DNA of 64,000 nt from Luminiphilus sp. (GTDB lineage: Bacteria; Pseudomonadota; Gammaproteobacteria; Pseudomonadales; Halieaceae): contig JAQWUD010000013.1 in the NCBI GenBank assembly GCA_029242325.1, positions 1 through 64,000 of the forward strand, written 5' to 3'. The notes below the pieces were generated by a model. That model had not been told where the DNA came from, ran no database searches, and was given only the letters and a program-made list of their open reading frames with translations. Position 1 is the first letter of the stretch. Every line of letters starts with the position of its first letter. The position numbers and the translations under genes are program-made. Positions 34,028 through 63,906 of this stretch are shown here, piece after piece.

Positions 34028-34036
34028 TGATATACT
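34028..34036 (+). promoter_or_regulatory. Candidate extended -10 promoter of crtI
   Basis: TGATATACT is an extended -10 (TGn plus TATACT, 5 of 6 matches to TATAAT). I see no -35 at the right distance. Its last base overlaps the first base of the CrtJ/PpsR site, so the transcription start would fall within the operator about 30 nt before the crtI ATG. Confidence 0.45.
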
Positions 34037-34053
34037 GTCAAATATATATGACA
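34036..34053. promoter_or_regulatory. CrtJ/PpsR-type operator upstream of crtI
   Basis: TGT-CAAATATATATG-ACA is a perfect match to the TGT-N12-ACA palindrome bound by CrtJ/PpsR repressors in purple bacteria. It lies 19 bp before the crtI ATG. Regulation by a PpsR homologue is inferred, since no ppsR gene is in the window. Confidence 0.75.
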
Positions 34054-34072
34054 GATTAAATGTCTTTTTTTT

Positions 34073-35608
34073 ATGAATATTGCCGAATCAGCGTTTCGCA
34101 CACTAGACACAACAGAAATCCGACCCACCGCTGTGGTAATCGGCACGGGCTTTGGTGGCCTGGCAGCAGCCATTCGACTGGGCGCCAAGGGCTATCGTGT
34201 ACACATGGTCGAAAAACTGGATGGACCGGGTGGGCGCGCTTACGTTTACCAACAGGATGGCTTCACCTTTGATGCCGGGCCCACGATCGTCACCGCACCT
34301 TTCCTGCTCGAAGAGCTGTGGGAAATGTGTGGCAGAAAGTTCGCAGATGATGTGGACCTGCGACCCATGGATCCCTTCTTCCGCATTCGTTTTGACGATG
34401 GCCGCATCTTTGATTACGGCGGAGACAAAGCACGCAATATCGAACAGATCAAAACCTACCGCGAAGCAGATGTCGCAGGCTACGAGCGCTATCTCAAGGC
34501 GAGCCAAGAACGCTACAAGGTAGGTTTCGAAGGGCTTGTCGACAAACCCTTTGACTCCCTGGCGGCTTTATTCAAATTTCTACCGCAACTGATTCGCCTG
34601 CGCAGTGATCGGAGCGTTTACCAGCTTGTCTCGCGCTACATCCGCGACCCGCAGCTGCGCATGACCATGAGCTTCCATCCACTGCTCATTGGCGGCAACC
34701 CGTTCTCAGTCACGAGCGTGTACACATTGATCTCTTTTCTCGAACAGCGCTTTGGTGTGTGGTCAGCGATGGGCGGAACCGGCAGCATCGTCGAGGGAAT
34801 GACATCGCTCATCGAGGGCCAGGGCGGGAAAATCGAGTATAACGCAGAGGTCGAAGAAATATTGGTGTCTGACGGCGCTGTTCAAGGCGTGCGGCTTCGT
34901 GATGGTCGTCAGATCAAAAGTGACTTGGTGGTATCGAATGCCGATGCGGCGTGGACGTATCGCCACATGATCCCAGCCGAGCACCGCAAGCGGTGGACCA
35001 ACCGCAGAATCGAACGGTCACATTTTTCTAATGGCTTATTCGTATGGTACTTCGGCACGCAAGGGAAGTACCCTGACGTACCCCACCACTCGGTCATTCT
35101 GGGACCCCGGTATCGCGGACTGCTGGATGACATCTTCAAACACAAGGTACTCGCCGAGGATTTCAGCCTCTATCTTCACCGTCCGACAGAAACTGATCCG
35201 TCTATGGCGCCGGAGGGTTGCGATACCTTTTATGCGCTGGCGCCAGTGCCGCATCTCGATGCGAATGTTGATTGGTCAACCTATGCCGAAACCTTTAAGG
35301 CACGGATCTGCGAGCGCCTTGAGCAAACTATGCTACCTGGTTTGCGCGACCGAGTTGTCACCTCTAGACTCCTGACACCGCAGGACTTCCACGATCGACT
35401 CAACTCGGTCAAAGGCGCGGCATTCGGCTTTGAGCCCCGAATCACACAGAGCGCCTGGTTCAGACCACACAATCGCAGCGAAGATGTAGCCGGTCTATAC
35501 CTGGTAGGCGCGGGCACCCATCCCGGCGCGGGGATGCCGGCGGTCATCTCATCGGCCAAGGTGATCGATCAATTGATCCCTGCCGCGGTGCCTCGTCGTG
35601 CGGAGTGA
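34073..35608 (+). CDS. crtI: Phytoene desaturase
   Basis: A 511-aa FAD enzyme. The dinucleotide motif VVIGTGFGGLAAAIRLGAKGYR is followed by the FDAGPTIVTAP substrate segment, with the C-terminal signature GLYLVGAGTHPGAGMPAVI. It desaturates phytoene to lycopene or neurosporene. There is no clear ribosome binding site before the ATG at 34073; the leader is AT-rich. A TGT-N12-ACA operator lies just upstream. crtB starts within the last codons, so crtI-crtB is one unit. Confidence 0.95.
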   Translation: MNIAESAFRTLDTTEIRPTAVVIGTGFGGLAAAIRLGAKGYRVHMVEKLDGPGGRAYVYQQDGFTFDAGPTIVTAPFLLEELWEMCGRKFADDVDLRPMDPFFRIRFDDGRIFDYGGDKARNIEQIKTYREADVAGYERYLKASQERYKVGFEGLVDKPFDSLAALFKFLPQLIRLRSDRSVYQLVSRYIRDPQLRMTMSFHPLLIGGNPFSVTSVYTLISFLEQRFGVWSAMGGTGSIVEGMTSLIEGQGGKIEYNAEVEEILVSDGAVQGVRLRDGRQIKSDLVVSNADAAWTYRHMIPAEHRKRWTNRRIERSHFSNGLFVWYFGTQGKYPDVPHHSVILGPRYRGLLDDIFKHKVLAEDFSLYLHRPTETDPSMAPEGCDTFYALAPVPHLDANVDWSTYAETFKARICERLEQTMLPGLRDRVVTSRLLTPQDFHDRLNSVKGAAFGFEPRITQSAWFRPHNRSEDVAGLYLVGAGTHPGAGMPAVISSAKVIDQLIPAAVPRRAE

Positions 35609-62008: not shown

Positions 62009-63285
62009 GAACCGACCTCCAGCTGACGTTCCCGCATTAGTGGGCGTGCAAAAAGGCCGGCCAGATCTGCCACCTGATCGAAGCCCTGAATCGGTGTAAA
62101 GATAAGCTCGATGGACCACTTGGTTCTCAGCCCTTCCGCTTCCAGCGGGTTCGCAATGCCCATGCCACACACCGTGAGATCCGGGCGATTCGCTCTTACT
62201 CTGGCCAGCGCCGAGTCGAGATCGGAACCCTCGATCAGCGAGACCTCTGCGCCAAGCTGCTGCAGTTCATCTGCCATCAACGTCTGATCGAGATACGGGG
62301 TCGCGACCTCAAGCAGAGACATCCCGCACTCATCGCGAAGGAAGCGCGCGAGAGGAATTTCCAGCTGCGAATCCGGGAGAAAATGGATGGACCGTCCCTG
62401 CAGGCACTCCTTGGCCTTTGCAAGCGCTTTTTGCGCACGCGCCAAGGGGGTGGCCAGCAACTCTCTGACCGACTCTGCGCTATGGCCCCACTCAGCAGCC
62501 GCCGCCTGAAACCAGCCTAGTGTGCCCTCTGCCCCCAATGGAAAGGGCGCCGTGATGAGCTTGGCGCCGCGTTTCGACAGCGCAGAGACGGTATCGCTCA
62601 CATACGGTTGGGCCAGCAATACCCTGGTGCCCGGACCCACAGACGGCAGATCATCCGCCCGTGCAGCAGGGAAGAAATCCACGTCAGTGATTCCCAAAGA
62701 CGTAAAATGACGCCGGAATTGTTCTTCGACAATATCGGCCAGAGTACCTACGACCATCAATCGCTGAGCACCCTCTTTAGCTGTCGGGAGATCGGGCACC
62801 ATACTGGTAAGACACTGGTCCTCACCCTGAGTAAACGTGGTCTCGATCCCCGAGCCACTGAAGGCAGAAATCCTGAGCCGGTTATCATGCACAACTTGGA
62901 GACGCGCAGCAGCGTTGGCTAGATCCAGCTTGATCACTTCAGACGGGCATGAGCCGACAAGAAAAAGGCGGCGGATATCTGGGCGACGCCCGAGCAACTC
63001 CGATACCACGCGATCCAGCTCTTCGTGGCAATCGGCCATGCCTGCCAGATCACGCTCTCCGAGAATTGCCGTTGCGAACCGCGGCTCGGCAAAGATCATG
63101 ACGCCTGCAGCCGACTGCAGTAGGTGAGCACAGGTGCGTGAACCGACAACCAGAAAAAAAGCATCCTGAATACGACGATGCAACCAGATAATCGAAGTCA
63201 ATCCACAAAACACGGCACGCTCACCACGCTCGGTGGTGACAGTGGGCACGTTACCCTCGTCTGCCCGTGCAATGACCCGACTCAC
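61999..63285 (-). CDS. bchN: Light-independent protochlorophyllide reductase subunit N
   Basis: A 428-aa catalytic subunit starting with GTG at 63285, in a 4-bp overlap with the bchF stop. The three Cys ligands of the NB cluster fall at C27 (AVFCGLTS), C52 (SRTCAHLL) and C113 (VGSCPSEV), close to the known positions. [12 protein letters not shown] and [19 protein letters not shown] agree with the family. Confidence 0.95.
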
Positions 63286-63818
63286 GACTCGAGTGCTCCG
63301 CGTGGACCCGGCGCTCGCGAGACGTCACCCAGCTCGGCGCCGGGCATTTGCTTTGCAGCTTGAAATTTAAGGAGAAATTGCAGCGCGTTGACGACGTAAC
63401 TGGCGTAGGCGGCGAGGGCAAGCCACATTTGTTCCAATGGCGAACCCCAACCGGCCAGCCACATGATGACGTAGCCAGTGTGTAGTGCCATGACCAACAT
63501 GCTGACCACGTCTTCCCAGAAAAAGGCGGGAGCGAACAAATACCGGCCAAAAACAACTTTTTCCCAAATGGCGCCTGTCACCATGATGGCGTAGAGCAAG
63601 CAAGTCTTGATCACCACTGAAATGGTTGCCGCAGTGAAGCCGATGCCGTTGAGTAGAAAATTGATTACTAGGCACAGACTCACGGCGAACGCTAAAAACT
63701 GTAGCGGCGCCAAAATACCTTGAACCAAGGTCCAAACCGTGGCGTCACGACGAGCACGCTCTGCCGGGGTGTACAGCGTCTGCCTCTGATGGCTGCCCGC
63801 CAGCTGATCTACGCCCAT
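63282..63818 (-). CDS. bchF: 2-vinyl bacteriochlorophyllide hydratase
   Basis: A 178-aa membrane protein that hydrates the 3-vinyl group to hydroxyethyl, the step before BchC. It has four helices, with [21 protein letters not shown] and [24 protein letters not shown] as family landmarks. The ATG at 63818 with GGAGGTTTTC is preferred over an upstream start. It heads the bchFNBHLM-lhaA-puh unit. Confidence 0.95.
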
Positions 63819-63888
63819 GAAAACCTCCAGCCGCAACAGGCACTAGGGCAGTTATTTTGAGGATCAGAGTAGAGTCACCCTCTTGCAC

Positions 63889-63906
63889 TGTCAAACCTTT
63901 TTTACA
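63889..63906. promoter_or_regulatory. CrtJ/PpsR-type operator upstream of bchF
   Basis: TGT-CAAACCTTTTTT-ACA fits TGT-N12-ACA exactly. Its TGTCAA half, read on the minus strand, is a perfect TTGACA -35 (63894-63889). A 17-bp spacer leads to TACTCT (63871-63866), a weak -10. The match to the bchC layout argues for a real promoter-operator. A weaker second half-site may lie about 8 bp further upstream. Confidence 0.75.

Follow-up and report, generated by a model that had tools for sequence, protein, structure and literature searches.

Putative PpsR/CrtJ operators at the photosynthesis promoters of a Luminiphilus species

Putative operator sites at photosynthesis promoters

The window analysed, a stretch of 64,000 nt from the Luminiphilus sp. 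assembly GCA_029242325.1 (contig JAQWUD010000013.1, designated G000:C32:1-64000; genome 2.76 Mb in 51 contigs), carries a photosynthesis gene cluster in which TGT-N12-ACA palindromes preceded crtI, bchC, the divergent crtE and crtC genes, and bchF. As judged from sequence, these palindromes are very probably operators of PpsR/CrtJ, which is encoded just beyond the window, rightward of the divergent bchF promoter (probability about 0.93). A preliminary description of the window had read them in this way, and that reading was supported by recurrence of the sites at the same promoters in relatives, presence of a PpsR homologue, and enrichment in the gaps of the cluster.

Five exact sites and one five-of-six site, CGT-N12-ACA, were confirmed on re-reading, all conforming to the PpsR/CrtJ motif TGT-N12-ACA (TGTca-N8-tgACA), one of them being a perfect match to the extended form. 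This last one, the putative operator TGTCAAATATATATGACA (nt 34036–34053, + strand), was situated 37 bp 5′ of the crtI start and was the sole exact TGTCA-N8-TGACA in the whole genome. Two putative operators on the - strand preceded bchC, the lower one (nt 46357–46374) including a possible -10 element, TAAAAT (nt 46361–46366, - strand), and the upper one (nt 46383–46400) having as its right half a possible -35 element, TTGACA (nt 46383–46388, - strand). In the crtE/crtC divergent promoter, the five-of-six site CGTCATATAATAATGACA (nt 48454–48471) contained ATGACA (nt 48466–48471), a possible crtC -35 element, and the exact site TGTTATATTAATATGACA (nt 48480–48497) contained TAATAT (nt 48488–48493), the possible -10. 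The start-to-start step was 26 bp in both the bchC and the crtE/crtC pair. The putative operator in the bchF-ppsR gap (nt 63889–63906, - strand) had TTGACA as its right half (nt 63889–63894, - strand), a possible bchF -35 element, followed after N17 by a possible -10, TACTCT (nt 63866–63871); it had been described as preceding bchF, which was correct, but it faces ppsR as well.

The sites named in the preliminary map all stood, but the map was incomplete. Beyond the window end, an exact site spanned the bchG start codon (nt 65469–65486) and a second exact site near ppsR (C32:64024–64041) was also present in four near relatives (L042, L045, L046, and L048); a further site lay between acsF and a BLUF gene (see below). 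The statement that bchI and crtD lack such a site held for this genome, in which no exact match was located within 350 bp upstream of either gene, but most relatives carried a site at bchI. Upstream of bchI in this genome, TGTTAGTATAAATTGATT (nt 30192–30209) occupied the place where four relatives have TGTTTAAATAAANTGACA, and is perhaps a decayed site.

The regulator gene ppsR

The regulator had been predicted to lie outside the window, and ppsR was found as the first gene past the edge, divergent from bchF. Its reading frame (nt 64052–65437, + strand, 461 aa) had three candidate start codons, TTG at 64052, GTG at 64067, and ATG at 64085, that is, 52 to 85 bp beyond the window edge. Gene identities were called throughout with NCBIfam models and their curated cut-offs, and the ppsR match (G000:C32:64190–65410, TIGR02040) reached 368.9 bits, above its cut-off of 275.4. 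The predicted protein was similar to solved PpsR chains and possessed PAS_8, PAS_4, and PAS domains as well as a Fis-type helix-turn-helix (HTH_8). Five aligned PpsR sequences, from this genome and four further Luminiphilus, did not vary over the end of the HTH or at Cys418; the equivalent cysteine in the DNA-binding region of CrtJ is C420.

Among the 57 Luminiphilus genomes, many of which are incomplete drafts, all had some ppsR match and 49 had one above the cut-off, the latter being the useful count because weak matches take in other HTH proteins; in the family, 59 of 140 genomes were above the cut-off. The gene adjoined bchF in this genome and in all 30 relatives' loci fetched around ppsR. 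A ppsR gene has been reported in L. syltensis (Spring et al. 2013; excerpts of PMC3666943 and PMC3679898).

Conservation of the sites in relatives

Conservation was counted as an exact TGT-N12-ACA within 250 bp upstream of a gene. For crtI, bchC, and crtE, seven relatives were used, a non-random sample chosen among 56 for long contigs, and for bchF the 30 loci fetched around ppsR. Second loci of the same genome (bchF and bchG), one idi locus (L065), and one bchI locus (L057) were left out; a match across the idi start in L066 fell outside the counted stretch. A relative is absent from a count where the gene was not in the fetched stretch or filters failed.

Sites were kept at crtI, bchC, and crtE in 7/7 relatives each and at bchF in 28/30, the means in shuffled sequences being 0.46, 0.49, 0.54, and 3.00, respectively, and both the promoters that carried them and their register agreed with those of this genome. 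At bchI, five of six relatives had a site, four of these being near-identical (TGTTTAAATAAANTGACA) and the fifth different. Control promoters were mostly devoid of sites: crtD (0/3), idi (0/9), hemN (0/9), puhE (0/9), bchO (0/7), pufL (1/8), and crtF (1/7). Steps between neighbouring sites at crtI, bchC, and crtE of the relatives were 25 bp (eight pairs), 26 bp (six), and 99 bp (one), so that 14 of the 15 pairs were tandem sites separated by 7 or 8 bp.

Overlap with promoter elements and proposed mechanism

At bchC, TTGACA-N16-TAAAAT lay within the palindrome pair, the upper member ending in TTGACA and the lower containing TAAAAT, and ATGACA-N16-TAATAT extended across the two sites at crtC. 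In the relatives, TTGACA-N16-TAnnnT was observed at bchC in 5/7 and TTGACA-N17/18-TAnnnT at bchF in 28/30, the same 28 that carry the site. The palindromes at bchC and bchF thus overlap sigma-70-like -35/-10 elements.

A PpsR dimer is predicted to bind each TGT-N12-ACA, and site pairs 25 to 26 bp apart would be bound cooperatively. PpsR would then occlude RNA polymerase at the presumed operons crtIB, crtE/crtF, crtC, bchCXYZ, and bchFNBHLM, and perhaps also at puf and puh. Exclusion of the polymerase is suggested because -35- and -10-like hexamers both fall within the putative operators at bchC, and perhaps also at crtC, and the -35 does so at bchF; occlusion would be the simplest reading of repression. 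From the bchF/ppsR gap, PpsR may also act on its own gene, and redox or light would be the likely signal.

Frequency of the palindrome and alternative explanations

Several observations weigh against the assignment to PpsR. The frequency of the motif over the whole window was at chance level (16 exact matches versus 11.48 in shuffles; 16 or more in 10/100 shuffles); bare motif frequency therefore carries no signal, and raw window-wide counting was dropped as a test since it gave no excess. The bchF/ppsR site was missing in 2 of the 30 relatives, and the bchG site was present in only 5 of 29 versus 1.07 in shuffles, the highest shuffle also reaching 5, and is therefore not genus-wide. The hexamer pattern was absent at crtI, crtE, and crtC in the relatives (seven each), and in a Thiodictyon plasmid cluster where ppsR adjoins bchF no exact site, and one five-of-six, lay between them. 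Similar palindromes are presumably used by other regulators, such as TyrR, and a reversed control of the AT-core pattern described below outnumbered the pattern itself in 10 of the 57 genus genomes.

Should AT-rich promoter DNA yield TGT-N12-ACA accidentally, the count over the window would be as expected, and across 24 intergenic gaps (5314 bp, gene limits set by the analyst) the five sites versus 1.32 expected were equalled in 21 of 2000 dinucleotide shuffles. In the seven gaps of the photosynthesis cluster (1815 bp), however, five sites stood against 0.59 expected and none of the 2000 shuffles reached five, whereas the 17 remaining gaps (3499 bp) held none versus 0.71 expected; the sites are thus not equally common in other intergenic DNA. 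Together with recurrence at the same promoters of the relatives, this renders accident so improbable as to be practically negligible. It would also be compatible with accident that the reversed control matched this genome twice; the stricter AT-core pattern, TGTNNNWWWWWWNNNACA, which was picked post hoc with the sites already known, had five matches in 2.76 Mb, of which four fell within the cluster (crtI, bchC, crtE/crtC, and bchG). The conserved letters might instead be sigma-70 promoter elements alone, and TTGACA and TAAAAT are indeed inside the bchC sites and TTGACA inside the bchF site. Yet the TGT on the far side of the -35 and the ACA on the far side of the -10 recur although they are not promoter letters, the crtI sites fit no hexamer pair under the pattern used, and the palindromes are missing from most other cluster promoters, which makes promoter elements alone a highly improbable account. 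That a different regulator, whether a light regulator of the MerR type or some other HTH protein of the Fis type, acts on the same genes is improbable as well, in spite of the possible use of such palindromes by other proteins: the constant neighbourhood of ppsR and bchF, 28 of the relatives' loci having an exact site 5′ of bchF, argues for PpsR, as do register, spacing, and target promoters that match those of CrtJ in R. capsulatus (excerpts of PMC5362033).

The fifth AT-core match (C10:60493) was inside a reading frame, which we take to be that of ribosome recycling factor. Over the 57 genus genomes the pattern had 356 matches versus 216 for the reversed control, with more matches than the control in 44 genomes, fewer in ten, and equal numbers in three. 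When up to two mismatches to the palindrome motif were allowed across this genome, the counts were 955 versus 736 for the reversed motif, mostly background, and 10 of 14 one-mismatch places outside the cluster with loci, among the matches listed, were inside reading frames of at least 120 aa. Elsewhere in the genus, AT-core matches adjoined genes in G001 and G002 (presumably lysS-like) and in G009 (presumably SDR-like), and one match was found in G005. Comparison of genus genomes with and without ppsR was set aside, since the five lacking a ppsR match (E 1e-20) were drafts of 68% to 93% completeness; their pattern/reversed counts were 8/6, 0/3, 6/6, 5/6, and 6/4, and one of them, G007, retains cluster-like sites.

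AerR and BLUF

No reading frame of at least 80 aa and no ppaA/aerR-like gene was observed in the bchF-ppsR gap (nt 63819–64000 and the next 51 bases); ppaA/aerR did not stand beside ppsR, which is followed by bchG. In Roseobacter litoralis, the bchF-ppsR interval contains a gene for a cobalamin-dependent protein, which from its position we take to be PpaA/AerR, and no such gene was there in the Thiodictyon plasmid cluster. With the R. litoralis protein as query, in a search run without a positive control, 0/57 genus genomes were matched. This genome had three B12-binding matches, of which the one on contig C4 was examined; it was rejected as AerR on account of its possessing both B12-binding domains and of its neighbour, which we assume to be a trimethylamine methyltransferase gene.

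The acsF gene was located outside the cluster (C48:75687–76673), divergent from a gene for a single-domain BLUF protein, and the gap between them held the five-of-six site TGTCAATTTTATTTGACT (C48:76798–76815; L073:2612–2629). In 30 loci, this genome included, drawn from the 47 genomes above the acsF cut-off, acsF and the BLUF gene were divergent without exception. The same five-of-six site was present in 17 of these gaps and a variant in one, while an exact AT-rich palindrome was found upstream of acsF in 12 and a GC-rich one in a thirteenth; some gaps had both kinds of site and five had neither.

An ECF sigma/ChrR promoter in one clade

In the genome G002, a palindrome of this type (L078:2778–2795; G002:C1:768777–768794) was situated between a gene pair encoding an extracytoplasmic function (ECF) sigma factor and ChrR (TIGR02451, 190 bits against a cut-off of 124.5) on one side and an FAD-oxidoreductase/DUF1365 pair, running divergently, on the other. 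Of the genus genomes, 52 had the gene, and ECF sigma/ChrR loci were examined in 42 of these. In the first set of 30 genus loci, 16 had an exact TGTATAT-N8-ACA, in homologous gaps (L122-L137), and lacked TGATC[CA]-N14-19-CGTA, whereas the remaining 14 had the latter motif and no palindrome. We take this motif to be of the sigma-E type, as in Rhodobacter. It was also found in 20/20 further loci from ppsR-positive genomes, including this genome (L152), which is thus of the sigma-E type, and one of these had in addition a palindrome with a GC-richer core. In family genomes that lacked a ppsR match, the sigma-E-like motif was present in 16 of 20 loci, and one locus matched the GC-richer-core palindrome.

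A protein tree built from 29 genus rows placed the palindrome-bearing loci together on one side of a single branch (100/100), and therefore a single event may account for them. TTGACA followed by 7 to 8 bp preceded the palindrome in 16/16 loci, an arrangement like that at bchC, and no outer TGT that would complete a second palindrome was present. One member of this clade, G007, had no ppsR match in a draft of 93% completeness. PpsR would be the regulator acting on this palindrome.

A reading put at somewhat less than even odds is that the Luminiphilus PpsR circuit is devoid of PpaA/AerR and probably receives its light input from the single-domain BLUF protein, whose promoter, common to acsF, has a PpsR-type site of its own; in one clade, comprising 16 species or more, it would also have captured the divergent promoter separating the ECF sigma/ChrR pair from the FAD-oxidoreductase operon, where a promoter of the sigma-E type would have given way to a sigma-70-like one bearing a PpsR operator. 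If this is true, a defence operon of the singlet-oxygen type would be directly controlled by the photosynthesis repressor, and the clade-specific promoter replacement next to the ChrR gene offers a testable case of such a repressor gaining a stress operon.

Genes of the photosynthesis cluster

The cluster begins at about 27.8 kb in the window and contains crtD, bchI, bchD, bchO, crtI, crtB-like, and idi genes, as well as pufLMC, bchCXYZ, crtF-, crtE-, and crtC-like genes, puhABCE, and bchFNBHLM. Scores were above the curated cut-offs for the crtI family, bchC, and bchF, and below them for crtE and crtC. The crtI gene (phytoene desaturase family; nt 34073–35608, + strand; TIGR02734, 620 bits) heads crtIB; bchC (nt 45317–46276, - strand; TIGR01202, 388 bits) heads bchCXYZ, with the puf genes farther along; and bchF (nt 63282–63818, - strand; TIGR02020, 198 bits) heads bchFNBHLM. 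From their common promoter, a crtE-like prenyl diphosphate synthase gene (nt 47559–48446, - strand; below the cut-off of GGPP/FPP synthase models) runs leftward and crtC (carotenoid 1,2-hydratase; nt 48531–49508, + strand; NF045922, 217 bits, cut-off 400) rightward.

Adjoining crtC was a HemN-like radical SAM gene (nt 49509–50825) that scored below the cut-off of every listed model (hemN, 247 of 325 bits). An alpha/beta hydrolase-like gene in the crtD-bchI interval (nt 29236–30294) has a start overlapping that of the divergent bchI, and the 793-bp gap between idi and pufC (nt 37307–38099) contained no reading frame of at least 120 aa.

Comparison with known systems

The systems compared here are described as in excerpts of the papers cited. 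A shared operator code across the cluster, as put forward in the preliminary description, was supported, but the idea had already been published for Congregibacter (PMC2654016). C. litoralis KT71 has the consensus TGTcaN8tgACA and 15 putative sites, 12 of them tandem and 7–8 nt apart; there, Spring et al. (2009) proposed PpsR to be a redox repressor with BLUF light input, and overlap of PpsR sites with sigma-70 promoters is cited for other species (PMC2654016). Luminiphilus resembles it in having OM60/NOR5 gammaproteobacterial photosynthesis genes with the same consensus and tandem sites, but one of the two BLUF genes of C. litoralis is near ppsR, whereas the single BLUF gene found in this genome is elsewhere, divergent from acsF. 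The open-access literature, as represented by these excerpts, provided no site map of PpsR for Luminiphilus.

In R. capsulatus, the bchC palindromes are at -47/-30 and -21/-4, over the -35 and -10 elements, and CrtJ peaks were observed at crtAI, bchC, puc, bchF, bchE, and crtED (PMC5362033). The TGTN12ACA sites of Luminiphilus are similar in their 26-bp step at bchC and in the predicted targets bchC, bchF, crtI, and crtE, but R. capsulatus CrtJ is partnered by the B12 protein AerR (PMC5362033), while PpaA/AerR was not detected in Luminiphilus. Paired TGT-N12-ACA sites are also described for PpsR of Rubrivivax gelatinosus, in which 8 or 9 bp separate the sites and the spacing affects the redox response (PMC4452267), versus 7 or 8 bp in 14 of the 15 neighbouring pairs in Luminiphilus. 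Scanned with the same motif, the plasmid cluster of R. litoralis had sites 5′ of bchF, 5′ of the gene for the cobalamin protein, and at the start of chlG. Thus, the PpsR operator code, including the 26-bp step at bchC, appears common to alphaproteobacterial purple bacteria and marine aerobic gammaproteobacterial phototrophs, and may be read from the genomes of uncultured species.

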